A DNA stretch of 64,000 nt from Lysobacter enzymogenes (GTDB lineage: Bacteria > Pseudomonadota > Gammaproteobacteria > Xanthomonadales > Xanthomonadaceae), in contig NZ_CP067395.1 in assembly GCF_017355525.1 (NCBI RefSeq), positions 3,999,001 to 4,063,000 of the forward strand. Reading direction: 5' to 3'. A program made the position numbers and the translations under genes. Below the pieces are notes generated by a model. The model had not been told where the DNA came from. It did no database searches and worked only from the letters and a program-made list of their open reading frames with translations. Below are positions 45,113 through 64,000 of this stretch, one piece after another. Within the stretch, counting starts at the first letter, position 1, and the number at the start of each line of letters is the position of its first letter.

Positions 45113-45814
45113 ATGCGCATCTTGATCGCCGAAGACGACCCCGCCATCGCCTCGGGTCTGAGCGCCGCGCTCGCCGACAGCGGCCACGCGGTCGACCGCG
45201 TCGCGCGCGGCAACGACGCCGACGCGGCCTTGCACGACGGCACCTACGATCTCGTCGTGCTCGATCTCAACCTGCCGCAGCTCGACGGCCTGACCGTGCT
45301 GCAGCGCGCCCGCGCGCGCGGCGAGAGCGCGGCGATGCTGGTGGTGACCGCGCGCGAAGGCGTCAGCGAACGCGTGCGCGCGCTCGACTCCGGCGCCGAC
45401 GACTATCTGGTCAAACCCTTCGTGCTGGAAGAATTCGCCGCGCGCGTGCGCGCGCTGCTGCGCCGCCGGGTCAGCCAGGGCATTCCGATGCTGTCGATCG
45501 GCAAGCTGCGCCTGGACCTGGCCGGTCGCCGCGGCTGGAACCAGGACGCGGCGCTGGAACTGACCGGCCGCGAGTTCGCCCTGCTCGACGCGCTGCTGAG
45601 CCGCCGCGGCAGCCTGGTCAGCCGCGAGCAACTGATCGAAGCGCTGTGCAACTGGGAACAGGACATCACCAACAACGGCCTGGACATCGCCATCCACCGC
45701 CTGCGCCGCAAGCTCGACGGCAGCGGCGTCAACATCCGCACCATCCGCGGCCTGGGTTACGTGGTCGAAGAAACCGGCGCCGCGATCGCGGCCGTCGGCG
45801 AACGCCGCGCCTGA
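45113..45814 (+). CDS. OmpR-family response regulator
   Basis: The protein has 233 residues. The receiver has the acidic pocket EDD (7-9), phospho-acceptor Asp51 in LVVLDLNLPQLDGL and Lys in DDYLVKPF. The C-terminal winged helix includes LTGREFALLDALLSRRGSLVSREQL and the IAIHRLRRKLDGSGVNIRTIRGLGYV end. It is the first gene of a six-gene operon and likely activates the exporter genes downstream. It is closest in style to QseB/TctD regulators. Confidence 0.93.
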   Translation: MRILIAEDDPAIASGLSAALADSGHAVDRVARGNDADAALHDGTYDLVVLDLNLPQLDGLTVLQRARARGESAAMLVVTAREGVSERVRALDSGADDYLVKPFVLEEFAARVRALLRRRVSQGIPMLSIGKLRLDLAGRRGWNQDAALELTGREFALLDALLSRRGSLVSREQLIEALCNWEQDITNNGLDIAIHRLRRKLDGSGVNIRTIRGLGYVVEETGAAIAAVGERRA

Positions 45815-45839: not shown

Positions 45840-47294
45840 GTGACTTCCGCCGCATCGACGCCCGGCCCGCGCGCCCGGCCCGCGCGCGCCGGCGACAGCC
45901 TGCGCCGGCGGCTGCTGCTGTTCCTGCTGGTGCCGGTGTGCATCACCGTGGTGCTGGTGTCGGTGCTGGTGTACGCGGTGGCTTCGCGCTACTCCGACAG
46001 CGTCTACGACGAAGGCCTGCTCGAAGACGCGTACGGCCTGGCCAAGGTGCTCAAGGCCACCGGCTCGGACGGGCAGCTGTCGCCGCAGGCGGCGTTCCTG
46101 CTCGAATACGCCAAGCTCGGCCACAACTACTACTCGGTGCGCAGCCTGCGCCGCGGCGAACTCAGCGCCAGCCGCGAGGCGATTCCGCCGGGTCCGGCGC
46201 CGCGCCTGGACGGCGACGCGCAGTTCTACGACACCCGCATCGACGACGTGCCTTCGCGCGCGGTCGCGCTGGCGGTGCCGGCGCCGGCCGATCCCAGCGA
46301 CACACTGGTGGTGACTCTGGCCGAAACCGTGCAGGACCGGCAGCTGCGCGCGCGCCAGATCCTGCTGATGTCGATCCTGCTGCAACTGGTGTTGACCGCG
46401 GTGCTGTTGGCGCTGATGTGGAGCGGCGTCAGCCGCGGCCTGCGCGCGCTGGATCCGCTGATCGGCCGCTTGGCCCGGCACGGGCAGGAACTGGTGCCGG
46501 TCGGCGACGTGCCGGTGCCGGCCGAGATCCGTCCGCTCAGCGCCACGATCGACGCGCTGCTCGAACGCATCCGCCGCCTGTTCGTCAGCCAGGAACATTT
46601 CATCGCCGACGCCGCGCACCAGTTGCGCACGCCGCTGGCCGGCCTGGCGCTGCACGCCGAACGCGCGCGCAGCAGCGCCGACGAGGGCCAGCGCGCCGAC
46701 GCGCTGGCGCAGGTGCAGGTGCTGACCATGCGCCTGGCCCGCACCGCGACCCAGTTGCTGGCGCTGAGCCGCGCGCAGGCGCCGGTGGAGGCCGACGGGC
46801 CGATGGCGCCGTTGCGCCTGGACCAGCTGTTGCCGGAAATTCTCGGCGAGCACGTCGCCCGGGCGATGCGCGCCGATGTCGATCTGGGCTACGAAGGCTC
46901 CGGCGAAGCCTTGTCGGTGCGCGCCGACGCGTATGCGCTGCACGATGCGCTCGGCAATCTGATCGACAACGCGCTCAGTTATGTGCGTCGCGGCGGCACG
47001 GTCAGCGTCGCCCTGCAGCGCTACGGCGAGTTCGCGCGGGTCAGCGTCGACGACGACGGCCCCGGCGTGTCCGACGCGGCGCTGCCGCGCCTGGGCGATC
47101 GTTTCTATCGCGCGCCCGAGGCGATCGAAGGCGGCACCGGCCTGGGGCTGGCGATCGTGCGCCGCATCGCCGACCGCCACGGCGCGCGCGTCGCCTTCGC
47201 CCGCTCGCGCCTGGGCGGGTTGCGGGTCGAACTGGATTTTCCCTTGATCGCCCCGGCGGGGCGGGTCGCGTCTTTGACCGCGGAGCTGCATTGA
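45840..47294 (+). CDS. Sensor histidine kinase (TctE/QseC-like)
   Basis: The protein has 484 residues, GTG start. TM1 is at about 25-48, with a periplasmic sensor domain at about 49-172 (2CSK_N-like) and TM2 at about 173-195. The HisKA phospho-acceptor is His260 in DAAHQLRTPLAG. The catalytic domain has NLIDNALSYV (N box), DDDGPGVSD (G1) and GTGLGLAIVRRI (G2). It is the partner of the preceding regulator. Its stop overlaps the next start as TGATG. Confidence 0.93.
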   Translation: MTSAASTPGPRARPARAGDSLRRRLLLFLLVPVCITVVLVSVLVYAVASRYSDSVYDEGLLEDAYGLAKVLKATGSDGQLSPQAAFLLEYAKLGHNYYSVRSLRRGELSASREAIPPGPAPRLDGDAQFYDTRIDDVPSRAVALAVPAPADPSDTLVVTLAETVQDRQLRARQILLMSILLQLVLTAVLLALMWSGVSRGLRALDPLIGRLARHGQELVPVGDVPVPAEIRPLSATIDALLERIRRLFVSQEHFIADAAHQLRTPLAGLALHAERARSSADEGQRADALAQVQVLTMRLARTATQLLALSRAQAPVEADGPMAPLRLDQLLPEILGEHVARAMRADVDLGYEGSGEALSVRADAYALHDALGNLIDNALSYVRRGGTVSVALQRYGEFARVSVDDDGPGVSDAALPRLGDRFYRAPEAIEGGTGLGLAIVRRIADRHGARVAFARSRLGGLRVELDFPLIAPAGRVASLTAELH

Positions 47295-48781
47295 TGTCCC
47301 TGTTCTCGCGGAGCCTGCCGTTGCCGAGCCCGTTCTTGCGCAGCCGGCTGCGTATCGCGCGCCTGCTGCCGCTGGCGCTGCTGCCCGTGGCCTTGGCCGC
47401 GTGCCTGAGCACGCCGATTCCCGACCAGACGCCGCCGTTGCCGCCGCAGTGGCGCAACGCACCGGCGGCCGATGCCGCGCCCGCAGCGGCGCCGGATCCG
47501 CGCGGCTGGTGGCATGCCTTCGGCGATCCGCGCCTGGACGCGCTGGTCGAACAGGCGCTGGCCGCCAACCTCGACACCGCCCAGGCGCGCGCGCGCCTGC
47601 GCTCGGCGCGGCTGCTGCAGCAACACGCCGGCGACGCGCTCAAGCCGGAAGTGCGCGCGCGCACCAGCAACCCGATCGATCCCGACGCCAGCGCCTCGTT
47701 CTTCGTGATGGGCCTGGACGCGGTCTGGGAAATGGGCTTCTTCGGCCGCAGCGAAGCGCTCGAACGCGGCGCCCGCGCCGAGCTCGACGGCGCCGCCGCG
47801 CAGCTGCGTCAGGCGCAGATCAGCGTGGCGGCGGAAACCGCGCGCGAATGGATCGCGCTGCGCGATGCGGCCGAGCGCGAGCGCCTGCTCGATTCGATCC
47901 GCGCCGCGCGCGCCGAGCAGTTGCGCGTGCAGCAGGTGCGCGCCGACCTGCGTCTGGCCGCGCGCGACAGCGTGCAGGCGCCGCGCGCCGCGCTGGCCCA
48001 GGCCGAAGCCGCGCTCGGCGAACCGCGCCAGCGCATCGTCGCCGCCGAACAGGCGCTGGCGGTGCTGCTCGGCCGCGCCGAACCCGATCCGGACTGGCGC
48101 CGCGGCGCGGCGCGTCCGCCGCTGGCGCGCGCGGCGATCGAACGCGCGCCGGCCGACCTGCTGCGCACGCGTCCCGACATCGCCCTGGCCCAGGCCGGGG
48201 TGCTGCGCGCGGCCGCCGATCTCGGCCTCGCGCGCGCCGATCAATACCCGCGGCTGGCGTTCGGCACCTCGATCCAATGGTCGGTCAACGTCACCGCGCA
48301 CCGCCGCACCGAAACCGAAGGCATCGGCGTGTCCGGTCCGATCATCGACGTGCCGCTGTTCGACTGGGGCCTGCGCCGCGCGCGCGCCCACGCCAAAGGC
48401 GCCGAACTCGAAGCGGCCGCGCTGGCCTACCGCAAGACCGTGCTGGCGGCGGTCGCGGAAACCGAATCGGCGCTGTCGGCGCTGGAGCAGCAGCGCCAGC
48501 GCGAGGACGCCGACCGCCGCGCCTTCGACGCGCTGGCGCGTTCGGCGCAGATGCAGCAAGTGCGGCGCGGGCTCGGCCTGAGCGGCGATCTGGAACTGGC
48601 CACGAGCGCGATCGAACGCGATCAGGCCGCGCTCGAACTGGTCGCCGCGCAGGGCGACCGCGCCCAGGCCTACATCGCGCTGTACAAGGCGCTCGGCGCC
48701 GCGCCCGAGGACCGGCTCGGCCGCGCCGACGAAGGCGACGTTGCCGCCACCGCGCGCGCCGACGCCGGAGCGCGCCGATGA
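47294..48781 (+). CDS. NodT-family outer-membrane efflux lipoprotein
   Basis: The protein has 495 residues. The signal ends in a lipobox (VALAAC). Two TolC-type repeats follow, with WHAFGDPRLDALVEQALAAN near the start, and DAVWEMGFFGR and LLRTRPDIALAQAGVLRAAAD later. It is the outer-membrane channel for the ABC exporter encoded immediately downstream; start and stop overlaps on both sides indicate translational coupling. Confidence 0.9.
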   Translation: MSLFSRSLPLPSPFLRSRLRIARLLPLALLPVALAACLSTPIPDQTPPLPPQWRNAPAADAAPAAAPDPRGWWHAFGDPRLDALVEQALAANLDTAQARARLRSARLLQQHAGDALKPEVRARTSNPIDPDASASFFVMGLDAVWEMGFFGRSEALERGARAELDGAAAQLRQAQISVAAETAREWIALRDAAERERLLDSIRAARAEQLRVQQVRADLRLAARDSVQAPRAALAQAEAALGEPRQRIVAAEQALAVLLGRAEPDPDWRRGAARPPLARAAIERAPADLLRTRPDIALAQAGVLRAAADLGLARADQYPRLAFGTSIQWSVNVTAHRRTETEGIGVSGPIIDVPLFDWGLRRARAHAKGAELEAAALAYRKTVLAAVAETESALSALEQQRQREDADRRAFDALARSAQMQQVRRGLGLSGDLELATSAIERDQAALELVAAQGDRAQAYIALYKALGAAPEDRLGRADEGDVAATARADAGARR

Positions 48782-49917
48782 CCTCGCTGGCGCGCCAGAC
48801 CCTGCGCTACGAATGGCGCCGGTTCCTGCCGGCGGTGCTGGCGATCGGCTTCTCCAGCCTGCTGCTGTTGCTGCAGGCGGCCTTGGTGCTCGGCATCTTC
48901 GGCAGCGCCAGCGTGTACGTGTCGGGTTCCTCGGCCGACCTGTGGGTCGGCTATCCGGGCACCCAGAGCGTCGACCAGGGCCGGCCGGTGGATCCGAACC
49001 TGCAATCGCTGCTGCTGATGCAGCCGCAGGTGGCCAAGGTCGAACCGTTCTATTGGCTCGACGCCGACTGGCGCGGCCCGGCCAAGGACACCGGCGGCGT
49101 GTCGGTGTACGTCTCCGGCATCGATATCGGCGCCAACGGGCTGATGTTCTCGCGCGCGCTGTCGCCGCAGCTGCGCCAGCGGCTGGCGCTGCCCGACAGC
49201 GTGATCGTCGACCGCGCCGAACTCGACAAGCTCGGCGTCGGCATCGGCGAGAGCGCGCACCTCAACGGCCATCGCGTGCGCGTGGTCGGCGCCAGCTCGG
49301 GCCTGCGCGCGCTCGGCGGCGTCAACGTCGTCGCCTCGCTCGAAACCGCGCGGCACCTGCAAGGCAACAGCGCCAACGCGGCCTGGCCGGCGTACTTCGT
49401 CGCCAGCCTGCGCGATCCGGCGCAGGCGCCGCAGGTGATCGCGCAACTGCGCGCCGGCGCCCCGGGCTTCGGCCGCTTCGAGGCCTGGACCGCGCCGGAT
49501 TTCGCCCGCCAGGCGGTGCTGTTCTGGATGTTCGACACCGGCGCCGGCGCCGGCGTGCTGTTCCTGGCCGCGGTGGTGCTGCTGGTCGGCGCGGTCATCA
49601 CCAGCCAGGCGCTGGTCGCCGCGGTCAACGGTTCGGTGCGCGAATACGCGACCTTGAACGCGCTCGGCATCGGCATGCGTTCGCTGCGCTGGGTGGTGCT
49701 GGAGCAGGCGCTGTGGGTCGGAGCGATCGGCGTGGTGGTGGCGACCGGCGCCGGGCTGGCGCTGATCGCGCTGGCGCGCGCGCGCGACGTGCCGGTGCTG
49801 TTCAATCTGCAAGTGACCGCGATCTGCATGCTGGTGGTGATGGTGCTGGCTTCCCTGTCGGGCCTGTCGGCCCTGCGCGGCCTGCGCCGCGCCGATCCCG
49901 CGGTGCTGCTGCGATGA
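48778..49917 (+). CDS. FtsX-family ABC exporter permease (DevC-like)
   Basis: The protein has 379 residues. TM1 is at about 18-40, with a large periplasmic domain at about 45-255 (SVYVSGSSADLWVGYPGTQS). Three C-terminal TMs (about 263-285, 305-330, 340-362) enclose NGSVREYATLNALGIG, the conserved FtsX loop. This fits MacB-fold exporters in which the ATPase is a separate protein. It acts with the next gene's ATPase and the last gene's fusion protein. Confidence 0.9.
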   Translation: MTSLARQTLRYEWRRFLPAVLAIGFSSLLLLLQAALVLGIFGSASVYVSGSSADLWVGYPGTQSVDQGRPVDPNLQSLLLMQPQVAKVEPFYWLDADWRGPAKDTGGVSVYVSGIDIGANGLMFSRALSPQLRQRLALPDSVIVDRAELDKLGVGIGESAHLNGHRVRVVGASSGLRALGGVNVVASLETARHLQGNSANAAWPAYFVASLRDPAQAPQVIAQLRAGAPGFGRFEAWTAPDFARQAVLFWMFDTGAGAGVLFLAAVVLLVGAVITSQALVAAVNGSVREYATLNALGIGMRSLRWVVLEQALWVGAIGVVVATGAGLALIALARARDVPVLFNLQVTAICMLVVMVLASLSGLSALRGLRRADPAVLLR

Positions 49918-50696
49918 ACGCCATGCCGAACCCGTCCGCCGCGCGCACCGCCGATCCCGCGGCCGGCCTTATCGCCCACGGCATCGTCAAATCCTTCGTT
50001 TCCGGCAGCGTGCGCACCACCGTGCTCGACGGCATTTCGCTGCAGGTGCATCCGGGCGAACTGACCTTGATCTCGGGCCCGTCGGGCTGCGGCAAGAGCA
50101 CGCTGCTGTCGGTGCTCAGCGGCTTGCAGCGTCCCGACCAAGGCCGGGTCAGCGCGCTCGGCGAAGACCTCGGCGCGCTCGGCCTGCGCGCGCTGGAGGC
50201 GTTCCGCCTGCACCACACCGGCTTCGTGTTCCAGGGCTTCAACCTGTTCCCGGCGCTGACCGCGACCGAACAGGTGGCGTTGCCGCTGCATTACCTCGGC
50301 CTCAGCCGCGCCGACAGCCGCGCCCGCGCGCTGGCCGCGCTGGAAGAAGTCGGCATGGCCCGGCGCGCGCACCTGCGCCCGGCCGAACTGTCCGGCGGCG
50401 AGAAACAACGCGTGGCGATCGCGCGCGCGCTGGCCAAGCGGCCGGCGCTGCTGTTCGCCGACGAGCCGACCAGCTCGCTCGACGCCGCCAACGGCCAGAT
50501 CGTGATCGATATCCTGCACGGCATCGCCCGCCGCCACCGCACCCTGGTGCTGTGCGTGAGCCACGATCCGCGCCTGATCGGCCACGCCGACCGTCTTGTG
50601 ACCATGGAAGACGGACGCATCCTCAGCGACCGGCGCGATCCTGGCGCCGATCTTCCGCTTTCTCCCATTCCCTCCTTCTCCCCCGGGCCGCGATGA
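49914..50696 (+). CDS. ABC exporter ATP-binding protein (LolD/DevA-like)
   Basis: The protein has 260 residues. Walker A is GPSGCGKS (55-62), the Q-loop is VFQGFNLFPALTATEQV, the signature is LSGGEKQRVAIARAL, Walker B is LLFADEPTSSLD and the H-loop is CVSHDPRL. The EGFNLF/ALTATEQV pattern is typical of MacB/LolD-type exporters. It overlaps the permease stop and the next start by four bases each. Confidence 0.94.
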   Translation: MNAMPNPSAARTADPAAGLIAHGIVKSFVSGSVRTTVLDGISLQVHPGELTLISGPSGCGKSTLLSVLSGLQRPDQGRVSALGEDLGALGLRALEAFRLHHTGFVFQGFNLFPALTATEQVALPLHYLGLSRADSRARALAALEEVGMARRAHLRPAELSGGEKQRVAIARALAKRPALLFADEPTSSLDAANGQIVIDILHGIARRHRTLVLCVSHDPRLIGHADRLVTMEDGRILSDRRDPGADLPLSPIPSFSPGPR

Positions 50697-51610
50697 TCCG
50701 TCTCCTTAACCGCCCTGCGCCGCTGTCGATCTGCCTCGCGCTGGCGTTGGCCCTGTCCGGCTGCGGCCGCGACGACGCCGCGAGCGCCGCCGCGCCGGCG
50801 GCCGCGAATCCGTCGTCGGCGTTCGCCGCGGTCGCGCGCGGCCGCATCGATGTCGAAGGCGGCCTGCTCAAGCTCGGCATGGCGGCCGACGGCGTGCTGG
50901 CACGGGTGCCGGTGCGCGAAGGCGAACGCGTCGCCGCCGGCCAGGAGTTGGCCGCGCTCGACGCCAACGCCGCGCAGGCCGACGACCGCATCGCCGAAGC
51001 CAAGCTGGCGCAGGCGCGCGCGCAAGTGAACCTGTTGCAGCAACGCCTCGCGCAAGCGCGCGTGCGCGCGCAGCGCCTCGGCGCGGCCGCCGCGGCCGGC
51101 GCCGGCGACGGCCAGAGCGCCGACGACGCCCGCGACGCGCTGGCGCAGTTGCAGAACGAAGCCGACAGCGCCCGCGCCGCCGCCGACATCGCCGCCGCGC
51201 AGCGCGATCAGGCCGCCTGGACCTTGCAGCGCCAGACCCTGCATGCGCCGGTCGCGGGCCAGCTCGCGCGCGTCGCCGCGCGCGTGGGCATGAGCGTGGC
51301 GCCGCACGGCGCGCCGCTGTTCGTGCTGCTGCCCGACGGCGAGCGCATCGTCCGCGCCGAACTCAACGCCGCCTTCCTCGACCGCGTGCATCCGGGCATG
51401 CGCGCGCAGATCCTCGACGACGGCGACACCCAGCGCGTGCTCGGCGCCGCCAAGGTGCTGCGTCTGGCGCCCGCGTTCGGCGCCTCGACCCTGGAAGACG
51501 ATCCGGACGTGCGCGCGAACGAGCGCACCGTCGAGTGCGTGCTGGCGCTGGACAAGGGCGACGGGCTGCGCATCGGGCAGCGCGTGTTGGTGCGGTTCCT
51601 GGGCAAATAG
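50693..51610 (+). CDS. HlyD-type membrane fusion lipoprotein of the ABC exporter
   Basis: The protein has 305 residues. Its signal peptide has a lipobox (LALSGC, Cys about 22). The lipoyl half-motif GVLARVPVREGERVAAGQELAAL is followed by a short coiled coil (about 90-180), LHAPVAGQLARVAARVGM and the beta-barrel region. It links the inner-membrane permease to the NodT-type channel. It is the last gene of the operon and is convergent with the zeta-toxin gene 13 bases on. Confidence 0.9.
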   Translation: MIRLLNRPAPLSICLALALALSGCGRDDAASAAAPAAANPSSAFAAVARGRIDVEGGLLKLGMAADGVLARVPVREGERVAAGQELAALDANAAQADDRIAEAKLAQARAQVNLLQQRLAQARVRAQRLGAAAAAGAGDGQSADDARDALAQLQNEADSARAAADIAAAQRDQAAWTLQRQTLHAPVAGQLARVAARVGMSVAPHGAPLFVLLPDGERIVRAELNAAFLDRVHPGMRAQILDDGDTQRVLGAAKVLRLAPAFGASTLEDDPDVRANERTVECVLALDKGDGLRIGQRVLVRFLGK

Positions 51611-54653: not shown

Positions 54654-55003
54654 CACAGAACATCTCTGTATTTCTCGACGTAATCGCGAATTCCTTTATC
54701 GCCGATCCAAGCCATCTTGCGAATGGCGCCGGACATTACATCCTGCTTGTGATCGGCTGCCGCGATCTTTACAGCGTCTCCATCGGCCTCGGCTTCCTTG
54801 AGTTCCTTGATCGCCTCGAAATAAAAGGTGTCCAAACGTCCCTCCAACATCCATATGATGCGGTCGAGCGGTTCCGATGCCGAAGGTGTATCTACGAAGT
54901 CGGCAAGCAGATCCTGTAAGCGTTGGATGTGCCCGGGATACTCCTTGAGCATGTCGCGGAGTCTTTGCGGTATGGGCGGCGGCGGTGGGTTCGAATGATT
55001 CAT
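54653..55003 (-). CDS. Small acidic protein, candidate immunity protein or antitoxin, copy 1
   Basis: The protein has 116 residues, predicted all-helical and acidic, with no export signal. The N-terminus is PPPPPIPQRLRDML, then HIQRLQDLLADF and IIWMLEGRLDTFYFEAIKELKEAE. It is homologous to the gene 10 bases upstream. The stop overlaps the zeta-toxin start as TGATG, so both proteins are made together, the classic arrangement for a toxin and its neutraliser. It does not resemble the known epsilon antitoxin. Immunity function is inference from position. Confidence 0.7.
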   Translation of the reverse strand: MNHSNPPPPPIPQRLRDMLKEYPGHIQRLQDLLADFVDTPSASEPLDRIIWMLEGRLDTFYFEAIKELKEAEADGDAVKIAAADHKQDVMSGAIRKMAWIGDKGIRDYVEKYRDVL

Positions 55004-55013
55004 CGAAATTGAT

Positions 55014-55388
55014 TCATTCAGTAAGGTATAGGGGCGGTTTGGTACGGCCGAAGAATCTGTGCGGGCTGTCTTGGCTTCCTCGCAAGCGCGATTCGGAATC
55101 TTCGACTGTTCTCTGGATGTAGATCAACGAATCCTCCATTCCACCCATTCCAGCTCCGGCATGCGACATTCGTAGCGCTCTCTTGTGTGCCGCCTCTAAA
55201 GCCGTTTGATCGCCAGCCCGTTTCGCCGCCTCGATTTCTTCGCGAGCTTCCGAGATGAACGTTTCTAGACAGCCTTCCAGCAACCAGACCGCACGATCAT
55301 AGGGATCCAACCCTGCGGAGGAGGTTTCGGCGAACCAATCGAGAGTCGCCTGCAAGCGATCGATGCACTCCGGGCAGTCAATGAGCAT
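55014..55388 (-). CDS. Small acidic protein, candidate immunity protein or antitoxin, copy 2, N-terminus uncertain
   Basis: The protein has 124 residues from MLIDCPECIDRL. It shares with copy 1 the core xIxRLQxxLxxF, then xxWxLEGxLxTFxxEAxxExxxA. Homology appears to continue upstream of this ATG (VPKKLLA, corresponding to IPQRLRD in copy 1), but an in-frame TGA and a shifted CCG run block an N-terminus like that of copy 1, suggesting a frameshift or a different start. The C-terminal ~45 residues differ from copy 1. Confidence 0.6.
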   Translation of the reverse strand: MLIDCPECIDRLQATLDWFAETSSAGLDPYDRAVWLLEGCLETFISEAREEIEAAKRAGDQTALEAAHKRALRMSHAGAGMGGMEDSLIYIQRTVEDSESRLRGSQDSPHRFFGRTKPPLYLTE

Positions 55389-55836: not shown

Positions 55837-56697
55837 ATGATCACCAACGCGGAATTCCACTACGAAGGCGGGCGCGACGGCGTGCTGCTGATCCACGGCC
55901 TGACCGGCACGCCGCACGAGATGCGGCTGCTCGGCAAAGGGCTGCAGCGGGCGGGATACACGGTCTACGGGATGCAGTTGGCCGGGCATTGCGGCGACGA
56001 GGCCGATCTGCTCGCGACCGGCTGGCGCGATTGGTACGCCAGCGTCGAGCGCGCCGCCGACGAACTGCGCGGCAAAGTCGATCGTTTGTACGTCGCCGGC
56101 CTGTCGATGGGCGCGCTGCTGTCGCTGATGCTGGCGGTGGAGCGGCCGGGCTGGGTGTCGGGCGTCGGCGTGCTCGGCGCGACCTTCCGCTACGACGGCT
56201 GGAACATGCCGAAGATCGGCCGGCTGTCGTTCCTGTTGCCGTGGTTCAAGCGTCTGGGCATCGGCCGCGGCCGCAGTTTTCAGGAAGAACCGCCGTACGG
56301 GCTGCGCGACGAACGCATCCGCGCCCAGGTCAGCGGCGCGATGCTCGGCGGCGACAGCGCGGCGGCGGGGTTGCCGGGCAATCCCTGGCATTCGCTGGCC
56401 GATCTGTACAGCCTGTCGGCGCATCTGCGCCGGCGCCTGGGCGAGGTGCGCGCGCCGTGTCTGGTCGCGCATGCGACCGAAGACGATGTCGCCCACGTGC
56501 GCAACGCGCAGTTGGTCGCCGACCGCGTATCGGGGCCGGTCGAGTTGCTGTGGCTGCGCGACAGCTATCACATGATTACGATCGACCGCGACCGGCGCGT
56601 GTTGATCGACGGCCTGGCCGGTTTCTTCCAGCGCGTCGGCGACGGCCGCGCGGTCGGTGCGGATGCGATGTCCGCCGCGGCGGTGCGCGCGGCATGA
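55837..56697 (+). CDS. Alpha/beta hydrolase (carboxylesterase/lipase-like)
   Basis: The protein has 286 residues. The oxyanion region is VLLIHGLTGTPHEM. The nucleophile elbow is GLSMG (Ser90), the acid is in HATEDDVAH and the His is in DSYHMITIDRDR. The pattern matches small carboxylesterases such as Est30, and thioesterase-like hydrolases that act on acyl chains. The start at 55837 was chosen for its fit to the fold; the open frame upstream crosses a low-GC gap. Its stop overlaps the next gene as ATGA, tying it to the transporter pair. Confidence 0.87.
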   Translation: MITNAEFHYEGGRDGVLLIHGLTGTPHEMRLLGKGLQRAGYTVYGMQLAGHCGDEADLLATGWRDWYASVERAADELRGKVDRLYVAGLSMGALLSLMLAVERPGWVSGVGVLGATFRYDGWNMPKIGRLSFLLPWFKRLGIGRGRSFQEEPPYGLRDERIRAQVSGAMLGGDSAAAGLPGNPWHSLADLYSLSAHLRRRLGEVRAPCLVAHATEDDVAHVRNAQLVADRVSGPVELLWLRDSYHMITIDRDRRVLIDGLAGFFQRVGDGRAVGADAMSAAAVRAA

Positions 56698-57053
56698 GCG
56701 CGCTGGTGTGGGCGCTGTGGACGGCGACGGTGCTGCTCGACACCGGCGGCCAGCTCGCGTTCAAGGCGGCCGCGGGCGATCCCGACGCCGGCGACGGACT
56801 GGCGCGCTGGAAGCACATGCTGTCGCGGCCGTGGCTGTGGATCGGCGGCGCCTGCTACGTGCTCGAATTCCTGGCCTGGATCGCGTTCCTGTCGCTGGTG
56901 CCGCTCGGCCGCGGCGTGCTGCTGGGCTCGATCAACATCGTCGCGATCATGCTCGCCGGGCGCTGGCTGTTCGGCGAGAAGCTCACGCCGTGGCGGTTGG
57001 CCGGCATGGGCCTGATCGGGCTCGGCGTGGCGATGGTCGGAGCGGGCGCATGA
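56694..57053 (+). CDS. EamA/SMR-type half transporter, ArnE-like
   Basis: The protein has 119 residues with four TM segments (about 3-22, 44-64, 68-90, 95-116). GQLAFKAAAG in TM1 and PLGRGVLLGSINIVAIMLAGRWLFGEKLTPWRLAGMGLI are typical of SMR/EamA half-proteins. It is the right size for one subunit of an ArnEF-like heterodimeric flippase. It overlaps its neighbours by four bases on both sides. Confidence 0.82.
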   Translation: MSALVWALWTATVLLDTGGQLAFKAAAGDPDAGDGLARWKHMLSRPWLWIGGACYVLEFLAWIAFLSLVPLGRGVLLGSINIVAIMLAGRWLFGEKLTPWRLAGMGLIGLGVAMVGAGA

Positions 57054-57508
57054 AGCGGTTCTATCTGATCGGTTTCGCCTTGCTGATGGGGTTCGACACC
57101 CTGGCCCAGCTGAGTTTCAAGCACGCCGGCAGCGGCGCGTTTCCGCCCGAGGCCTCGCTGGACTGGCTGCTGCGCCTGCTCGCGCAGCCGTGGCTGTACG
57201 GCGCGCTGCTCGGCTACATCGGCGCGTTCTTCACCTGGATGAGCCTGCTCAAGCACGCGCCGATCGGGCCGGCGTTCGCCGCGTCGCACCTGGAAGTGGT
57301 CAGCGTGCTGGCGTTGTCGGCGTGGCTGTTCGGCGAACGCTTCAGCTCGTTGCAGGTGGCCGGTGCGGTCGCGATCGTCGCCGGCATCGTGTGCCTGGCG
57401 ATGGGCGAGCCGGACGACGCCGAATCCGGCAGCGAGCAGGCGGCGCAACTGGCCGCCGGGCGCGAACCTCGCGATGCGGGCGAAGCCGATGGCGGCGCCG
57501 CGCACTGA
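57050..57508 (+). CDS. EamA/SMR-type half transporter, ArnF-like
   Basis: The protein has 152 residues with four TM segments (about 4-21, 42-64, 72-92, 98-118), then a 30-residue acidic soluble tail. FDTLAQLSFKHAG in TM1 and HAPIGPAFAASHLEVVSVLALSAWLFGERFSSLQVAGAV in the third and fourth helices are family-typical. With the preceding gene it forms a two-subunit transporter. The tail-coding region overlaps the next gene by 20 bases. Confidence 0.82.
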   Translation: MKRFYLIGFALLMGFDTLAQLSFKHAGSGAFPPEASLDWLLRLLAQPWLYGALLGYIGAFFTWMSLLKHAPIGPAFAASHLEVVSVLALSAWLFGERFSSLQVAGAVAIVAGIVCLAMGEPDDAESGSEQAAQLAAGREPRDAGEADGGAAH

Positions 57509-58718
57509 ACTGCCGCCGACGGCGGGGTTGCCGCTGCGCTGGAGCGATTTCGCCCCGGGCGCGGCAGCGCCGCTGGCGCCGCAACTGGCGCGCCTGCTCG
57601 AACTCGACGACGGTGCGGCCACGCTGACCTGTTCGGGCACCGCCGCGCTGGTGCTCGCGCTGAGCGCGCTGGGGCGCGACAGCGCGCGCCGCGATGTGAT
57701 CGTGCCGGCCTATACCTGCCCGCTCGTCGCCATCGCGGTCGCACACTGCGGGTTGAACCTGCGCTTGTGCGACACCCGGCCCGGGCATTTCGAAATGGAT
57801 CCCGACGCGCTGGCGGCGCTGTGCGGCCCGGACACGCTGGCGATCGTGCCGGCGCATCTGGGCGGGCGTCTGGCCGATCTGGGCGCGCCGGTGCGGCTGG
57901 CCCGCGCGGTCGGCGCCCGGGTGATCGAAGACGCGGCGCAGGCGCTCGGCGCGCGCCACGCCGACGGCACGCCGGCCGGCGCGGCCGGCGACCTGGGCAT
58001 CCTCAGTCTCGCCGCCGGCAAGGGACTGAGCATTTTCGAAGGTGGCGCGCTGATCGCGCACGATCCGGCGTTGCGCGCGCGCATCGCCGAACTCGCGCCG
58101 CAGGTGCTGCCGCGGTCGTTGCGCTGGGAAGCGCGACGTTGCATCGAACTGATCGGCTACGCGCTGCTCTACGGGCCGCGCGGGCTGCGTTGGGTGTACG
58201 GCGCGCCTCTGCGGCGCGCGCTGCGGCGCGGCGACGAGGTGGCGGCAGCGCAGGACGAGTTCTCCTTGCGCATTCCGTTGCACCGGGTCGGCGGCTGGCG
58301 CCGCGCCATCGGCGCGCGCGCCGCGCCGCGCCTGCCGGCGTTCCTCGATGCCGCGCGCCAGCGCGCGCTGGCGCGCAGCGCGCAGTTGCGCGGGATCGAA
58401 GGCGTGCAGGTGCTCGGCGACCGCCGCGGCGAACGCGGCACCTGGCCGACCCTGACCCTGCTGTTCGCCGATCCGGCCGCGCGCGACGCCGCGCTGGCGC
58501 GGCTGTGGGGCGCGGGCCTGGGCGTGTCCTGGCCGTTCGTGCGCGCGCTGCCGGATTACGCTTACCTGCGCGGCACCGTTGCGTCCGCGCCGATGCCGAA
58601 CGCCGCCGATTTCGCCGCGCGCGTGCTCGCCGTCGGCAACAGCGAATGGCTCGACGATGCGGCGTTCGCGCGGATCGCGCAGGTGCTGCAGGAAAGCTGC
58701 CGACAGCCGCGAGGCTGA
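57489..58718 (+). CDS. DegT/DnrJ/EryC1/StrS-family PLP aminotransferase
   Basis: The protein has 409 residues. LTCSGTAALVLALSALG, VIVPAYTCPLVAIAV, HLGGRLADL, VIEDAAQALGA (Asp binding PLP nitrogen) and the Schiff-base lysine in LSLAAGKGLSIFEGG (Lys about 178) are all present, so the enzyme should be active. Family members act on keto-sugars (ArnB, for example) or in polyketide and aminocyclitol pathways. Its position after an ArnEF-like pair invites an amino-sugar reading, but the sequence is far from ArnB and the substrate is open. Confidence 0.87.
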   Translation: MAAPRTELPPTAGLPLRWSDFAPGAAAPLAPQLARLLELDDGAATLTCSGTAALVLALSALGRDSARRDVIVPAYTCPLVAIAVAHCGLNLRLCDTRPGHFEMDPDALAALCGPDTLAIVPAHLGGRLADLGAPVRLARAVGARVIEDAAQALGARHADGTPAGAAGDLGILSLAAGKGLSIFEGGALIAHDPALRARIAELAPQVLPRSLRWEARRCIELIGYALLYGPRGLRWVYGAPLRRALRRGDEVAAAQDEFSLRIPLHRVGGWRRAIGARAAPRLPAFLDAARQRALARSAQLRGIEGVQVLGDRRGERGTWPTLTLLFADPAARDAALARLWGAGLGVSWPFVRALPDYAYLRGTVASAPMPNAADFAARVLAVGNSEWLDDAAFARIAQVLQESCRQPRG

Positions 58719-58736
58719 CGAGGCGGGTGCACCCCC

Positions 58737-59086
58737 TGTAGGAGCGGCGCGAGCCGCGACCGCGTCATTGCGGCTGCGTCGGAAGCTCCGTCGCGGTTGC
58801 GGCTTCGCGGTCGCGACTCGCGTCGCTCCTACAGTCTGAAACGAACCGGCCGAAGCCTCCTGTAGGAGCGGCGCAAGCCGCGACCACGTCATTGCGGCTA
58901 CGTCGAAAGCTCCGTCGCGGTTGCGGCTTCGCGGTCGCGACTCGCGTCGCTCCTACAGTCTGAAACGAGCCGGCCGAAGCCTCCTGTAGGAGCGGCGCAA
59001 GCCGCGACCGCGCCATTGCGGCCACGTCGAAAGTTCCGTCGCAGTCGCGGTTCCGCAGTCGCGAGTCGCGTCGCTCCCAACATCCA
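58737..59086. repeat. Tandem array of three family A elements, period 124 bp
   Basis: TGTAGGAGCGGCGC begins at 58737, 58861 and 58985. Each unit has a left half, about 40 bases of spacer (GTCATTGCGGC...), a right half ending GTCGCTCCTACAG and a 26-base linker (TCTGAAACGA...). The third unit's right half is degenerate. It fills the 388-base gap 58719-59106 between convergent genes. Confidence 0.9.
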
Positions 59087-59106
59087 GAACGAATCGCGCG
59101 GCAATC

Positions 59107-59985
59107 TCACCCCAACGCCGACAACAACCGCAGGTTGACCCGATGCTGCTGCGCCTGCCACAGCCGCAGCGCGTCCGCGTCCGGCGGGCTCTGACCATCG
59201 GCGGCGGCCAGCGCGCGCTTCCACCATTGCGGATAGGCGGCGATGGAGATCTCGCCGGTGACGTCGCTGGCGACGATGCGCGGGCGCAGGCGCGCGACCG
59301 CGGCGAGCAGGGCGTCGGCGCGCATCTGGCCTTGGTCCCAGTTGGTCATCGCGTCCTCGGGGCGCAGCACGTCCTTGTCGATGCTGAGGTAGATCGGGTC
59401 GCGGCCGGTCTCGATCTCGGCCAGGAACGCGTCCAGCGCGGCGTCGACGCTGGCGTGGCTGCGCACCGCCGCGCCCAGGCCGAGCCGGCGCGCCCAGCCG
59501 ACTGCGACCTGGCTCGACCAGTAGCGCAGCTTGCCGCGGTACAGCGGACGCAGGCGGTTTTCCCAGGCGTGCGCCAGGCCGATGTCGGTCGAGGTGATGC
59601 CGACCACGTGCACCCGCGCCACCTGCGGCAGCGCGGCGACTTTCGCCACCCACGAGCCGCAATGGATCGCCAGCGGAAAGCGCATGTTGTCGGGATGGTT
59701 GTCGAACACCACCACCTGCAGGCGGCCGTGGGCGCGCGCGGCGCGGCGGATCAGCGGCAGGCTGAGGTGGTGGAAATCGCCGCTGCCGAGGAAGGCGCAG
59801 CCGTGGCGCGCCGGCAGGGTTTGCTCGAGGCGTTCGCCGAAGCGCGCCAGCGCGCGTTGCGAGCAGGCGAAGCGCAGGCGGTCGTGCCAGTCGCGCAGGT
59901 CCAGGCGCAGCGCGCCGGGCAGGGCGCCGACCGAGGCGTCGAGGTCGAGCACGACCGGCGTCTGGGCGGCGGCCGCCGACTTCAT
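59107..59985 (-). CDS. Arginase/ureohydrolase-superfamily protein
   Basis: The protein has 292 residues. All six metal ligands of the ureohydrolase fold can be placed: His in GSGDFHH (about 72), Asp-x-His-x-Asp in FDNHPDN (95, 97, 99) and Asp-x-Asp in YLSIDKDVL (203, 205). VTGEISI supplies the later Glu. Sequence outside the motifs is unlike arginase, agmatinase or formimidoylglutamase. It probably hydrolyses a guanidino, formimino or amide group. ATG 59985 lies four bases beyond the stop of the acyltransferase gene; an earlier start at 60009 is possible. Confidence 0.83.
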   Translation of the reverse strand: MKSAAAAQTPVVLDLDASVGALPGALRLDLRDWHDRLRFACSQRALARFGERLEQTLPARHGCAFLGSGDFHHLSLPLIRRAARAHGRLQVVVFDNHPDNMRFPLAIHCGSWVAKVAALPQVARVHVVGITSTDIGLAHAWENRLRPLYRGKLRYWSSQVAVGWARRLGLGAAVRSHASVDAALDAFLAEIETGRDPIYLSIDKDVLRPEDAMTNWDQGQMRADALLAAVARLRPRIVASDVTGEISIAAYPQWWKRALAAADGQSPPDADALRLWQAQQHRVNLRLLSALG

Positions 59986-59989
59986 CGAA

Positions 59990-61102
59990 TCAGGCGCGGC
60001 TGGCGGCATCGGCGTTCTCCGGTTCGTTCGCGGCCGCCGCGGCGGCCTCCAATACGCTGCGGTCGGATTCGAAGAACTTCGCCATCCGGCGCAAGCCGGC
60101 GCGCAGCAGCGGATTGCGCGCGTACACCGCATGCCGGGTGAAGGCGAAGCGCGCGCCGAGCTGGCGCTTGACCTGCGGGTCGGTCCAGCCGGCGACGTAG
60201 GCGTCGAGGTTGCGGCGCAGCGCGTAGTCGAGGTTTTCGAACCAGCTCAGCGCATAGAGATTGTGTTCGCGCGCCTGCGGGTAAAGCAGGCCGATGTACT
60301 TGTCGACCAGCATGCCGGCGTGTTCGTAGCACAGGTTCCAGCCGATCGTCTCGCCGTGGTGGCGGTACACGAACACCACCCCGCCGCTGTCGCCGTCGCG
60401 CAGCAGGGCGCGGAAGTAGTCGCGGCTGAGCAGGTCGAAGTGGATCTCGCTTTGCGCGTAGACGTTGAGGTACAGCGCGTAGAACGCGTCGACGAGCGCG
60501 TCGTCGGCGAACTCCGGCGCGCCGGCGGCGAGCGTGTCCACGCTCAGGTCCGCGCGCGAGCGCAGTTTGCGGCGCAGGTCGCGGCGGCGCCCGCGCGACA
60601 GCCGCGCGAGATACGCATCGATGGAGTCGAAGTCGATCGGCACCCAGGCCAGCGCCTGGCCTTCCAGCAGCACGAAGCCCTCCGCGGCCAGGGCGTCGGC
60701 GAAGGCCGCGGCCTGGCGGTTGGCCTCGGCCGGCAGCAGCGGCGAGTCGACCGGCAGGTCCTTGACGATCAGCAGAGGGCAGCGCCGGCCCTGTTCCTCG
60801 CGCAGGCGCCGCGCCAGCGCGGCGGCGTCGTCGCGGCCGGGCAGCGGCGGCAGCCACAGGTATTCGGTGTTGGTCGCACCGATGAAGCGGGTGCGCAGGC
60901 GCAGCCACGGCCGCCACAGCGCGTGGCCGGGCCAGCCGCGCACGCGCCGCAGCAGCTCCGGCTCGGCGGTCGTCAATGGATCGAACGGCGCGGTGAACGC
61001 GGGCAGGCCACCGCCGGCCATTTCCGCGGCGAAGCCGGCCGGCGGATGGGCGAGGAAGTGGCCGAGCAGCCGCTCAGGTTCCAGACGGGTCACGAAAGAC
61101 AT
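59990..61102 (-). CDS. GNAT/FemAB-like acyltransferase
   Basis: The protein has 370 residues. It contains a GNAT-type core in the second half (RRDLRRKLRSRADLSV, VDAFYALYLNVYAQSEIHFDLLSRDYF, VVFVYRHHGETIGWNLCYEHAGMLVDKYIGL, NLYALSWFENLDYALRRN) and a tail VKRQLGARFAFTRHAVYARNPLL as in BioF2/FemAB-like transferases (PF13480/PF04339 type). Such enzymes often take acyl-ACP or aminoacyl-tRNA donors. It is divergent from the ACP gene with a 113-base shared promoter region and in an operon with the ureohydrolase-fold gene. Confidence 0.8.
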   Translation of the reverse strand: MSFVTRLEPERLLGHFLAHPPAGFAAEMAGGGLPAFTAPFDPLTTAEPELLRRVRGWPGHALWRPWLRLRTRFIGATNTEYLWLPPLPGRDDAAALARRLREEQGRRCPLLIVKDLPVDSPLLPAEANRQAAAFADALAAEGFVLLEGQALAWVPIDFDSIDAYLARLSRGRRRDLRRKLRSRADLSVDTLAAGAPEFADDALVDAFYALYLNVYAQSEIHFDLLSRDYFRALLRDGDSGGVVFVYRHHGETIGWNLCYEHAGMLVDKYIGLLYPQAREHNLYALSWFENLDYALRRNLDAYVAGWTDPQVKRQLGARFAFTRHAVYARNPLLRAGLRRMAKFFESDRSVLEAAAAAANEPENADAASRA

Positions 61103-61215
61103 GTGCAAGGTTCGCCGGCTAGAGTCGGGCGTTGATGGGCCGGGCCCGGCCGCCTCGCGCGTCGGACCCGACCCTGTGCGGTCCAGCCCCCGCGAGCGAC
61201 ACCAGGAGCGCCAGC

Positions 61216-61482
61216 ATGAACGAATCCGTCGAACGGCAGTTGTACGAAATCATCGCCAAGCAGAGCGGCATCGACGTCGCCACGATCACTCCGCAGTCCA
61301 CGCTCAAGGATCTCGGCGTCGACTCGCTGACCGCGATCGAAACCATCTTCGAGATCGAAGAACACTTTGGCGTGACCCTGCCCGACCGCGACCCCAACTT
61401 CGACACCGACTCGGTGCAGGGCCTGCTGACCGCGCTGCAGCAGGCGCTCGACGGCGCCGCCGCGGCGCCGGACGCGGCCTGA
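61216..61482 (+). CDS. Stand-alone acyl carrier protein
   Basis: The protein has 88 residues, acidic. The phosphopantetheine site is LGVDSLTAIETIFEIEEHFG (Ser about 38). AGGAG lies before the ATG. It differs from housekeeping AcpP, which has DSLDTVELVMALEEEF, so it is a dedicated carrier. It needs a PPTase; one is encoded at 31.5 kb. The ketosynthase follows after 63 bases, separated by an 18-base GC palindrome at 61483-61500. Confidence 0.92.
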   Translation: MNESVERQLYEIIAKQSGIDVATITPQSTLKDLGVDSLTAIETIFEIEEHFGVTLPDRDPNFDTDSVQGLLTALQQALDGAAAAPDAA

Positions 61483-61545
61483 GCCGGCGCGCGCGCCGGC
61501 CGTCTTCGCGACGGCCCGCTTGAATTCCATCCGCCGGAGACCCGG

Positions 61546-62760
61546 ATGCGCAGAGTAGTGATCACCGGCATGGGCGCGATCAACGCGCTCGGCCACACCG
61601 CGGCCGACACCTGGCGCGAAATGCTCGCCGGCCGCAGCGCCATCGGCCCGGTCCAGGCGGTGCCGGCCGAGAAGCTGCGCGCCAAGGTCGCCGCCGAAGT
61701 GCGCGGCTACGAGCCGGCGCAGCACTTCGACGACAAACGTTTGCCGATGCTCGACCGCACTTCGCAGTTCGCGTTGATCGCGGCGCGCGAGGCGGTCAGC
61801 CAGTCCGGCCTCGACTTCCGCCAAGGAGATCTGGGCGAGCGCAGCGCGGTCATCGTCGGCACCGGCGTCGGCGGCGAAACCAGCCACGACGAGGCGTTCC
61901 GCCGCCTGTACGGCGACAACAACCCGCGCGTGCATCCGTTCACCATCGTGCGGGTGATGGCGAACGCGCCGGCCTGCCACCTGAGCATCGAATTCGGCAT
62001 CACCGGCCCGGCGTTCGGCGTGGTCAGCGCCTGCGCCTCGTCGAACCATGCGTTCTCGCAGGCCTTGCAGACCATCCGCGCCGGCAGCGCCGACGTGGCC
62101 CTGGCCGGCGGCGCGGAGGCCTGCATCACGCTCGGGCTGACCAAGGCCTGGGAGGCGATGCGGGTGCTGGCCGACGACACCTGCCGGCCGTTCTGCCTGC
62201 AGCGCCGCGGCTTGGTGCTCGGCGAGGGCTCGGCGATCTTCGTGCTGGAAGAATACGAACACGCGCGCCGGCGCGGCGCGACGATCCTGGCCGAACTGGC
62301 CGGCGCCGGCCTGTCGGCCGATGCCAGCGATCTGGTCCTGCCGTCGCAGGCCGGCGCGGTCGCGGCGCTGCGGCGCGCGCTGAAGGACGCCGGGCTGGCG
62401 CCGGAACAGATCGGCTACATCAATGCCCACGGCACCGCCACGCCGGCCAACGATCCCAGCGAGAGCCGCGCGATCCGCGAGGTGTTCGGCGCGCACGCCG
62501 ACGGTTTGCCGGTGAGCTCGACCAAGGCCGTGCACGGCCATGCGCTCGGCGCGGCCGGCGCGCTGGAGATGGTCGCCGCGCTCGGCGCGCTGCGCGAGCA
62601 GGCGGTGCCGCCGACGGCGAACTTCCTCGATCCGGATCCGCAGTGCGATCTGGATTATGTGCCGAATGCGGCGCGCGAGGCGAAGGTGGAAGCGGTGCTG
62701 TCGAACTCGTTCGCGTTCGGTGGGTTGAATGCGGTGGTGGCGGTCCGAAGCTTGCGTTGA
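61546..62760 (+). CDS. Beta-ketoacyl-ACP synthase, FabF (KAS II)-like
   Basis: The protein has 404 residues. The thiolase-fold active site is Cys163 in VVSACASSNHAF, His295 in NAHGTATPANDPSE and His332 in STKAVHGHALGAAGA. All three are present, so it should condense acyl units. There is no KS-beta partner. It differs from housekeeping FabF in details and is paired with the dedicated ACP, suggesting specialised chain extension. A good ribosome binding site (CCGGAG) precedes the ATG. Confidence 0.9.
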   Translation: MRRVVITGMGAINALGHTAADTWREMLAGRSAIGPVQAVPAEKLRAKVAAEVRGYEPAQHFDDKRLPMLDRTSQFALIAAREAVSQSGLDFRQGDLGERSAVIVGTGVGGETSHDEAFRRLYGDNNPRVHPFTIVRVMANAPACHLSIEFGITGPAFGVVSACASSNHAFSQALQTIRAGSADVALAGGAEACITLGLTKAWEAMRVLADDTCRPFCLQRRGLVLGEGSAIFVLEEYEHARRRGATILAELAGAGLSADASDLVLPSQAGAVAALRRALKDAGLAPEQIGYINAHGTATPANDPSESRAIREVFGAHADGLPVSSTKAVHGHALGAAGALEMVAALGALREQAVPPTANFLDPDPQCDLDYVPNAAREAKVEAVLSNSFAFGGLNAVVAVRSLR

Positions 62761-62775
62761 AGACGACGCAAAGGA

Positions 62776-62821
62776 CGGGTGGGCATCGTCGCCCACCCGG
62801 CCCGAACGCATGGCGTTCGGG
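62776..62821 (+). terminator. Double hairpin after the ketosynthase gene
   Basis: CGGGTGGGC / GCCCACCCG (62776-62799, 9-bp stem, 6-base loop) is followed by CCCGAACGC / GCGTTCGGG (62801-62821, 9-bp stem, 3-base loop). No U-tract follows. The rest of the gap to 63006 contains another GC palindrome pair (CCTCACCCCG ... GGGTGAGG) and no gene. Confidence 0.6.
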
Positions 62822-63006
62822 CGTTCGCGGCCGCGCGAGCCGGTGGCTCGCAAGCGCGGCCCCTCACCCCGCTTTGCGGGAGAGGGAAATGCGAGCGCAG
62901 CGAGCGAGGGTGAGGGCCGCGGGCCCTCACGCGACGGCGCAACCAACGCGACAACCGCGACGACTGGCAAACGAGGAAGCACAGCCGCCGCGGCCATCGC
63001 GTCCGC

Positions 63007-64000
63007 TTACAGCGAGCGCTTGGCGCGCGTCAGCAGCTGATCCAGCAGGGCCAGCGCCTGATCGATCTCCGCGCCGGAAATATGCAGCGACGGCGCCAGC
63101 GTGATCACGTTCTTGTAGTAACCGCCGACGTCCAGCACCAGGCCCATCTTCTTGCCGTTGTAGTCCAGATCGCCGGCCAGGCCGATGTCGCACATGCGGT
63201 CGAGCAGCTGCTTGTTCGGGGTGAAGCCGTCGGCCTCGCAGATCTCCGCGCGCAGCGCCAGGCCCAGGCCGTCGACGTCGCCGATTTCCGGATGGCGCTG
63301 CTGCAGGTCCTTCAGGCCGGCCAGGAAGTGCGCGCCGGCGCGCATCACCCGGTTCTCGTAATCGCCTTCGGCCAGCATCCGCATCGTCTCCAGGCCGACC
63401 GCGGTGCCCAGCGGGTTGGAGGCGAAGGTCGAATGGGTCGAGCCCGGCGGGAACACGGTCGGGTTGATCAGCTCCTCGCGCGCCCAGATGCCGGCGAGCG
63501 GGTTGAGGCCGTTGGTCAGCGCCTTGCCGAACACCAGCACGTCGGGCTGCACGCCGAAATGCTCGATCGACCACAGCTTGCCGGTGCGGAAGAAGCCCAT
63601 CTGGATTTCGTCGACGACCAGCAGGATGCCGTACTTGTCCAGCACGCGCTTGAGCCCGGCGAAGAAGTTCGGCGGCGGAATCACGTAGCCGCCGGTGCCC
63701 TGGATCGGCTCGACGTAGAACGCGGCGTACTCGCACTGGCCGACCTTGGGATCCCACACGCCGTTGTATTCGGTCTCGAACAGGCGCTCGAACTTGGCCA
63801 CGCAATGCTCGCCGTATTCTTCCTTGCTCATGCCCTTGGGGCCGCGGAAGTGGTACGGGAATTCGATGAACTGGGCGCGGTCGAAATGGCCGTAGCGGCG
63901 GCGGTAGCGGTACGAGGAGGTGATCGCCGAGGCGCCGAGGGTGCGGCCGTGGTAGCCGCCTTCGAACGCGAACATCAGGCTCTTGCCGCCGCTGGCGTTG
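63007..64000 (-). CDS. Class III PLP aminotransferase, N-terminus beyond the window
   Basis: About 331 codons are visible; the gene continues past the right edge. Motifs are FEGGYHGRTLG (substrate/PLP-phosphate region), VEPIQGTGGYVIPP, LLVVDEIQMGFFRTGKLW (PLP-binding Asp), the Schiff-base Lys in LVFGKALTNGLNPLAG and STFASNPLGTAVGLETMRML. This is the ornithine/diamine/omega-amino-acid aminotransferase class. Visible motifs are intact and the enzyme should be active. Its position beside the ACP/KS and ureohydrolase-fold genes suggests it prepares or consumes an amino substrate in the same pathway. Confidence 0.88.
   Translation of the reverse strand, partial: NASGGKSLMFAFEGGYHGRTLGASAITSSYRYRRRYGHFDRAQFIEFPYHFRGPKGMSKEEYGEHCVAKFERLFETEYNGVWDPKVGQCEYAAFYVEPIQGTGGYVIPPPNFFAGLKRVLDKYGILLVVDEIQMGFFRTGKLWSIEHFGVQPDVLVFGKALTNGLNPLAGIWAREELINPTVFPPGSTHSTFASNPLGTAVGLETMRMLAEGDYENRVMRAGAHFLAGLKDLQQRHPEIGDVDGLGLALRAEICEADGFTPNKQLLDRMCDIGLAGDLDYNGKKMGLVLDVGGYYKNVITLAPSLHISGAEIDQALALLDQLLTRAKRSL

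Follow-up and report, generated by a model that had tools for sequence, protein, structure and literature searches.

What kind of compound would be made by a gene group that joins an acyl carrier protein (ACP) and a single FabF-like ketosynthase (KS) to two aminotransferases, a FemAB-like transferase and a ureohydrolase-fold enzyme? The question is raised by a locus in a 64,000-nucleotide stretch of Lysobacter enzymogenes DNA (contig NZ_CP067395.1), hereafter the window, which comprises bases 3999001 to 4063000 of the complete 5.95 Mb genome. An earlier note had named nine genes at 55837 to 64000, had found no nonribosomal peptide synthetase (NRPS) or modular polyketide synthase (PKS) there, and had predicted the synthesis and export of an N-acylated amino compound or aminolipid. 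Profile scans and residue checks placed all nine genes where they had been reported, apparently intact and in the expected families, and no NRPS or modular PKS was present among the cluster genes scanned. The span, however, covers just nine of about sixteen system genes, since conserved neighbours that had been overlooked, namely a DevBCA-like exporter with a TolC-type channel, a two-component pair and, outside the window, a HAD phosphatase, extend the unit, which spans roughly 45113 to 65174 (equivalent) and is split by a zeta-toxin cassette. These genes very probably form one functional unit, and their content supports biosynthesis plus export with amine chemistry; the likely role of the unit is to produce and secrete a small molecule that bears an amine. 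We propose only tentatively the whole pathway set out below, in which a conserved and regulated unit would make and export a small amine-bearing, probably amphiphilic compound. The features are as follows.

45113..45814, plus strand: OmpR-type response regulator, a recurrent neighbour; best NCBIfam matches TctD (217 bits) and PmrA (216 bits), both below cut-off
45840..47294, plus strand: sensor histidine kinase; QseC best (184 bits), PmrB 115 bits, below cut-offs
47294..48781, plus strand: TolC/NodT-type outer-membrane channel; TIGR01845 203 bits (cut-off 210), PF02321 7.4e-28
48778..49917, plus strand: DevC-like ABC permease of the FtsX/MacB type; TIGR01185 73 bits (cut-off 290)
49914..50696, plus strand: DevA-like ABC ATPase; best match TIGR02982, 211 bits, below the cut-off of 296, with LolD close (202 bits)
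50693..51610, plus strand: DevB/HlyD-like periplasmic adaptor; RND_mfp 59.7, HlyD 53.6 and DevB 49.8 bits, below cut-offs; PF13437
51624..55388, minus strand: zeta-toxin cassette, an insertion; zeta protein 51624-54656, small open reading frames (ORFs) 54653-55003 and 55014-55388
55837..56697, plus strand: alpha/beta hydrolase with nucleophile motif GLSMG; PF12146 1.8e-18
56694..57053, plus strand: EamA/SMR half-transporter 1 (SMR1), ArnE-like; PF00892 5.9e-5 (23.8 bits, below the cut-off of 28.2), ArnE 31 bits
57050..57508, plus strand: EamA/SMR half-transporter 2 (SMR2), ArnF-like; PF00892 2.3e-8, ArnF 24 bits
57489..58718, plus strand: DegT-family aminotransferase dependent on pyridoxal phosphate (PLP), PLP-Lys motif GKGLS; PF01041 6.4e-38
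59107..60009, minus strand: ureohydrolase-fold metallohydrolase; Arginase PF00491 8.5e-10
59990..61102, minus strand: FemAB-like tandem-GNAT transferase; FemAB_like PF04339 9e-12
61216..61482, plus strand: ACP with the Ser in DSL; PP-binding PF00550 4.2e-14
61546..62760, plus strand: FabF-like beta-ketoacyl-ACP synthase (the KS), Cys-His-His intact; PF00109/PF02801
63007..64000, minus strand: class III aminotransferase (AT3), cut by the window end; Aminotran_3 PF00202 7.1e-59
64458-65174-equivalent, outside the window: MtnX-like HAD phosphatase

Extending the sequence past 64 kb completed the AT3 frame, which continues to a probable ATG at 64461-equivalent, where its start overlaps the stop of the HAD gene. 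With the start codons that we chose, frames overlap by a few bases in hydrolase-SMR1-SMR2, in TolC-DevC-DevA-DevB and in HAD-AT3, as expected for operons. The stop of the FemAB-like gene lies 4 bases ahead of one possible ureohydrolase ATG (59985) whereas the alternative in-frame ATG, at 60009, precedes that stop and would give a 20-base overlap with the upstream gene, as in the related locus L027.

That these genes belong together is argued for by their conservation. We compared 80 loci, the best 80 of 136 relatives as chosen by similarity of the FemAB-like protein, which is thus present in 80/80 by construction; several of these loci end at contig ends, and the gene calls in some relied on a rough GC-frame method that mislabelled some frames. 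Searches by tblastn found the ureohydrolase in all 80, the KS and the ACP in 66 each, DegT and the hydrolase in 64 each, SMR1 and SMR2 in 62 each, AT3 in 54 and the HAD phosphatase in 50, followed by DevA (45), DevB (43), DevC (42), TolC (41), the regulator (31), the kinase (29) and a MipA gene (22), the counts for DevA, regulator and kinase possibly including unrelated homologues. Much the same gene set occurs in loci of Rhodanobacter, Dyella, Luteibacter, Dokdonella, Xanthomonas, Pigmentiphaga and Acidovorax, and very similar copies are found in Lysobacter enzymogenes and in Lysobacter sp. yr284 (89 and 87% identity of the FemAB-like protein).

Co-inheritance was assessed in 120 related genomes, own included, with thresholds of 1e-5 for the ureohydrolase, 1e-15 for the FemAB-like protein and 1e-120 for AT3. 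The ureohydrolase was found in 16 of them and the FemAB-like protein in those same 16; AT3 was found in 15 of these, sometimes at a separate place, and in one other genome. Hypergeometric tests on this co-occurrence, which ignore phylogeny, gave 3e-20 and 5e-17; with genera as the unit of counting, the values are 5e-14 and 4e-11. In two genomes of one genus (g77), the set is divided over two places, with HAD-AT3 and exporter parts at one of them, arguing for a functional tie beyond mere linkage. A counterexample is G118, a genome without AT3 in which the 20 kb examined contain just the FemAB-like gene and the ureohydrolase. Non-co-occurrence had been named in the earlier note as the result that would speak against a shared system, but the genes do co-occur elsewhere, across genera; we rejected chance neighbourhood, given the strong co-inheritance and the recurrence of both arrangement and co-occurrence across genera. 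Within the genus itself, the ureohydrolase is present in just 5/20 genomes, own included, and its presence is thus patchy.

The catalytic residues are intact. Orthologues from the 80 loci were included in this check if their ORF differed from the query by no more than 70 residues in length, and the rest were dropped. Cys163, His295, His330 and His332 of the KS are kept in 64/64 orthologues and the phosphopantetheine Ser of the ACP in 60/60; the residue preceding this Ser is Asp here and Ala in 50/60, unlike the usual DSL. The ureohydrolase has an arginase fold with six metal ligands, in agreement with the earlier note, and its Asp/His ligand columns as well as the His of HCGS are kept in 75/75. 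Pattern searches recovered the DegT PLP-Lys motif in 63/63, the HAD motif DFDGT in 48/48, the hydrolase motif G-[LF]-SMG in 64/64 and the AT3 Lys motif in 39/40; the Pfam match of DegT spans its N-terminal half only. At E<=1e-60, the KS has one other match in its own genome, 40% identical, and we rejected the KS as the housekeeping FabF because of this second FabF-like copy elsewhere. The HAD phosphatase meets the broad MtnX-like HAD-IB model TIGR01489 (83.4 of 81.55 bits) and misses the cut-off of the MtnX equivalog NF007103 (94 of 292 bits). An exosortase/PEP-CTERM system was likewise set aside, since the hydrolase scores 21 of the 202.75 bits required by the exosortase A-associated hydrolase model TIGR03101.

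The export genes, from adaptor to channel, are adjacent in overlapping frames at 47294-51610. In many related loci, genes for a periplasmic adaptor, an ABC ATPase, a permease of the FtsX type and a NodT/TolC channel come after the hydrolase, sometimes with a two-component pair and MipA, and the HAD phosphatase frequently precedes the aminotransferase. When the permease of a Rhodanobacter cluster was searched against the Lysobacter genome, its sole match (E<=1e-5) was at 48772-49914, with 64% identity and E 1.9e-148. The arrangement resembles DevBCA-TolC of Anabaena in that an adaptor, an ABC ATPase, a permease of the FtsX type and an outer-membrane channel are encoded next to synthetic genes, with DevA and DevC as best named matches. 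It differs in that the NCBIfam cut-offs for DevA, DevB and DevC are all missed (211/296, 49.8/129 and 73/290 bits), that no large glycolipid polyketide synthase is among the genes scanned and that it has its own two-component system. DevBCA-HgdD is reported, in the part of the source available to us, to transport heterocyst glycolipids (PMC6161253), which makes an amphiphilic product plausible, though it is no proof.

The pathway that we tentatively propose would begin with AT3 and the HAD phosphatase, which may act on a keto compound carrying a phosphate to give an amino alcohol or a comparable amine. By way of example only, transamination of dihydroxyacetone phosphate followed by dephosphorylation is the RtxA-type route to serinol, as described in the accessible part of PMC3222319; the likeness drawn here is one of reaction pair, and the cluster phosphatase differs in being a separate, MtnX-like HAD protein. 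The FemAB-like enzyme would then put an aminoacyl group, most likely from aminoacyl-tRNA, on the amine or a hydroxyl, and the ureohydrolase, its constant partner, would hydrolyze the guanidino (or a related amidino or formimino) group of the conjugate, for example turning arginyl into ornithinyl. In most lineages, the dedicated ACP and KS could supply an acyl chain that the alpha/beta hydrolase frees or trims, and DegT may contribute a further amino group. The EamA/SMR pair would carry the product or a lipid-linked intermediate over the inner membrane, and the DevB/DevA/DevC-like pump with the TolC-type channel would export the product under control of the two-component pair. What the analysis establishes is the gene content, the co-inheritance, the intact catalytic residues and the predicted folds; the substrates, the order of the steps and the product are inferred from these.

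The central step of this scheme is suggested by the fold of the FemAB-like enzyme. Its predicted structure shows a double-GNAT fold, as in FemABX, and Foldseek placed it, among the matches listed, closest to the aminoacyl-tRNA-dependent transferases FemX, MprF and Sbb17, so that its earlier label as a GNAT acyltransferase is not supported as it stood. The protein may well use aminoacyl-tRNA, a prediction from structural modelling that we hold with slightly less than even confidence. By sequence, it has no match to any solved chain at E<=1; Pfam FemAB (PF02388) has no match in the genome at E<=0.01, and the protein matches PF04339 (FemAB_like) instead, a family for which we know of no tested function. 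The Lys of its K-x-x-LGA motif is invariant (62/62), although it would pair with FemX Lys305 only by extrapolated alignment ends. Against this reading of the enzyme, its structural matches also include acyl-CoA enzymes that share the two-lobed fold.

The ureohydrolase might turn an arginyl conjugate into an ornithinyl one, which we regard as doubtful. Peptide arginases such as OspR and BipC are described, in the portions available of PMC10028609 and PMC12707348, as atypical ureohydrolases that convert Arg to Orn within a peptide and keep six metal ligands, and the cluster enzyme likewise keeps its ligands (DxHxD and S-I-D-K-D). It differs from these enzymes (PF12640/UPF0489) in having GSGDFHH in place of EEH(N/H)EAF, no PF12640 listed at E<=1, a FemAB-like partner and no identified precursor of a ribosomally synthesized and post-translationally modified peptide (RiPP), and we rejected a RiPP peptide arginase on the PF12640 result. 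The corresponding full route, in which a FemX-like enzyme takes Arg from arginyl-tRNA and attaches it to an acceptor, either an amine or a lipid, the ureohydrolase removes urea and the DevBCA-like TolC pump exports the product, is speculative to the same degree. If true, it would yield an ornithinyl group that the translation machinery cannot supply directly, and both aminoacyl-tRNA and conjugate arginases would be seen in a new role. The pairing of PF04339 with a ureohydrolase makes both testable.

The best surviving alternative, which we consider rather unlikely, stays near the earlier proposal: an N-acylated aminolipid whose chain, built by ACP and KS, is put on an amine by the FemAB-like protein acting as an acyl-ACP N-acyltransferase and is flipped by the EamA pair. 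It would account for the intact residues of ACP and KS in the 66/80 loci that have them, for the two-lobed fold that the FemAB-like enzyme shares with N-myristoyltransferase, for the resemblance of the pump to a known glycolipid exporter (PMC6161253, seen in part), and for cyclopropane-synthase (CMAS) genes near the cluster in two scanned loci, L096 and L145, which hint at fatty-acid modification. However, ACP and KS were not found in 14/80 loci, including those of Acidovorax/Paracidovorax, Delftia and Pigmentiphaga, in which AT3, the FemAB-like enzyme and the ureohydrolase are kept; acyl-chain building is thus optional rather than core, and the aminolipid reading is weakened. The aminoacyl-tRNA-dependent nearest folds also speak against it, and it leaves the constant ureohydrolase partner and the second aminotransferase unexplained.

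An Arn-like envelope modification, in which DegT and the half-transporters would make and flip a polyprenyl-linked amino group that, as happens in polymyxin resistance, is added to lipid A or to some other glycan of the surface, appears improbable. The cluster shares with the Arn pathway (ArnB, ArnE, ArnF, PmrAB) a DegT enzyme, paired small EamA/SMR proteins and a PmrA-like regulator, and ArnE and ArnF are indeed the best NCBIfam matches of half-transporters 1 and 2; as an ArnEF-like pair they stand in this sense only, since the equivalog cut-offs are missed (31/92 and 24/99 bits). Among related loci, L041 contains a PMT_2-like membrane transferase (E 8.9e-5, below cut-off), and L154 has a PIG-L deacetylase next to HAD-AT3. 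Against this, the scores are below cut-offs, ArnA, ArnC, ArnD and ArnT are not among the cluster genes scanned, the four PMT_2 matches of the genome all lie far from the cluster, the DegT match is limited to its N-terminal half, and the Arn pathway is not known to include a KS, a FemAB-like enzyme or a TolC exporter. It is very improbable that the locus is a self-protective pump system with enzymes that detoxify an incoming amine or guanidine compound without synthesis: the two-component pair, TolC-type pump and hydrolases, which are typical of resistance islands, and the patchy presence in the genus (5/20), would fit it, but the ACP, the KS, both aminotransferases and the FemAB-like transferase have the look of synthetic enzymes, and HAD-AT3-hydrolase occurs in the distant loci L143-L147 without a DevB, DevC or TolC match in the stretch searched.

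Returning to the proposed biosynthesis-and-export unit, its product would be an exported class common to several Xanthomonadales and Burkholderiales genera, and the cluster would probably be overlooked by tools that search for NRPS/PKS genes. A literature search, with most subscription journals outside its coverage, did not turn up a published account of the cluster, a negative that carries little weight.

More distant versions vary in content. With AT3 as query at 1e-120, matches were found in 25/398 genomes of the phylum, own included. In 14 stretches around AT3 matches, some of which end at contig ends, we found HAD in 12, the hydrolase in 12, the ureohydrolase in 7, the FemAB-like gene in 6 and the KS in 3, so that HAD-AT3-hydrolase seems to be the most widely shared core. 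L154 has AT3, HAD, KS, ACP, SMR and exporter genes together with the deacetylase, without FemAB-like gene or ureohydrolase; directly after HAD (L154:11486-14427) lie this PIG-L gene and the gene of a large protein for which no Pfam family exceeds its cut-off and which, on inspection by eye, may be a membrane transferase of the PMT/ArnT type. In L140 and L145, sigma-54-type response regulators replace the OmpR-type pair. Two Pigmentiphaga loci (L048 and L072, families scanned in L048) carry two cyanophycin-synthetase-like genes and an ABC exporter between ureohydrolase and DegT; we set the synthetase-like genes of L048 aside as members of the system and took them as a local insertion.

In the Lysobacter locus, 4.2 kb separate DevB from the hydrolase. 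They encode a zeta-toxin protein (PF06414 7.2e-49) whose C-terminal extension is long; upstream of its gene are two small ORFs, which are alike by eye and have no family match in profile scans. Both flanking genes are present in 46 other loci, where their tblastn matches are separated by 78-919 bases and no zeta-protein match was found. Judged by these comparisons, the cassette is an insertion in the cluster, outside the system, and it looks like an effector-immunity cassette. Further along, outside the window at about 71435-71974 in its coordinates (L009:19435-19974), a protein near the cluster carries an X-Tfes_XVIPCD domain (PF20410 1.4e-21), which we take to be a mark of type IV secretion effectors.

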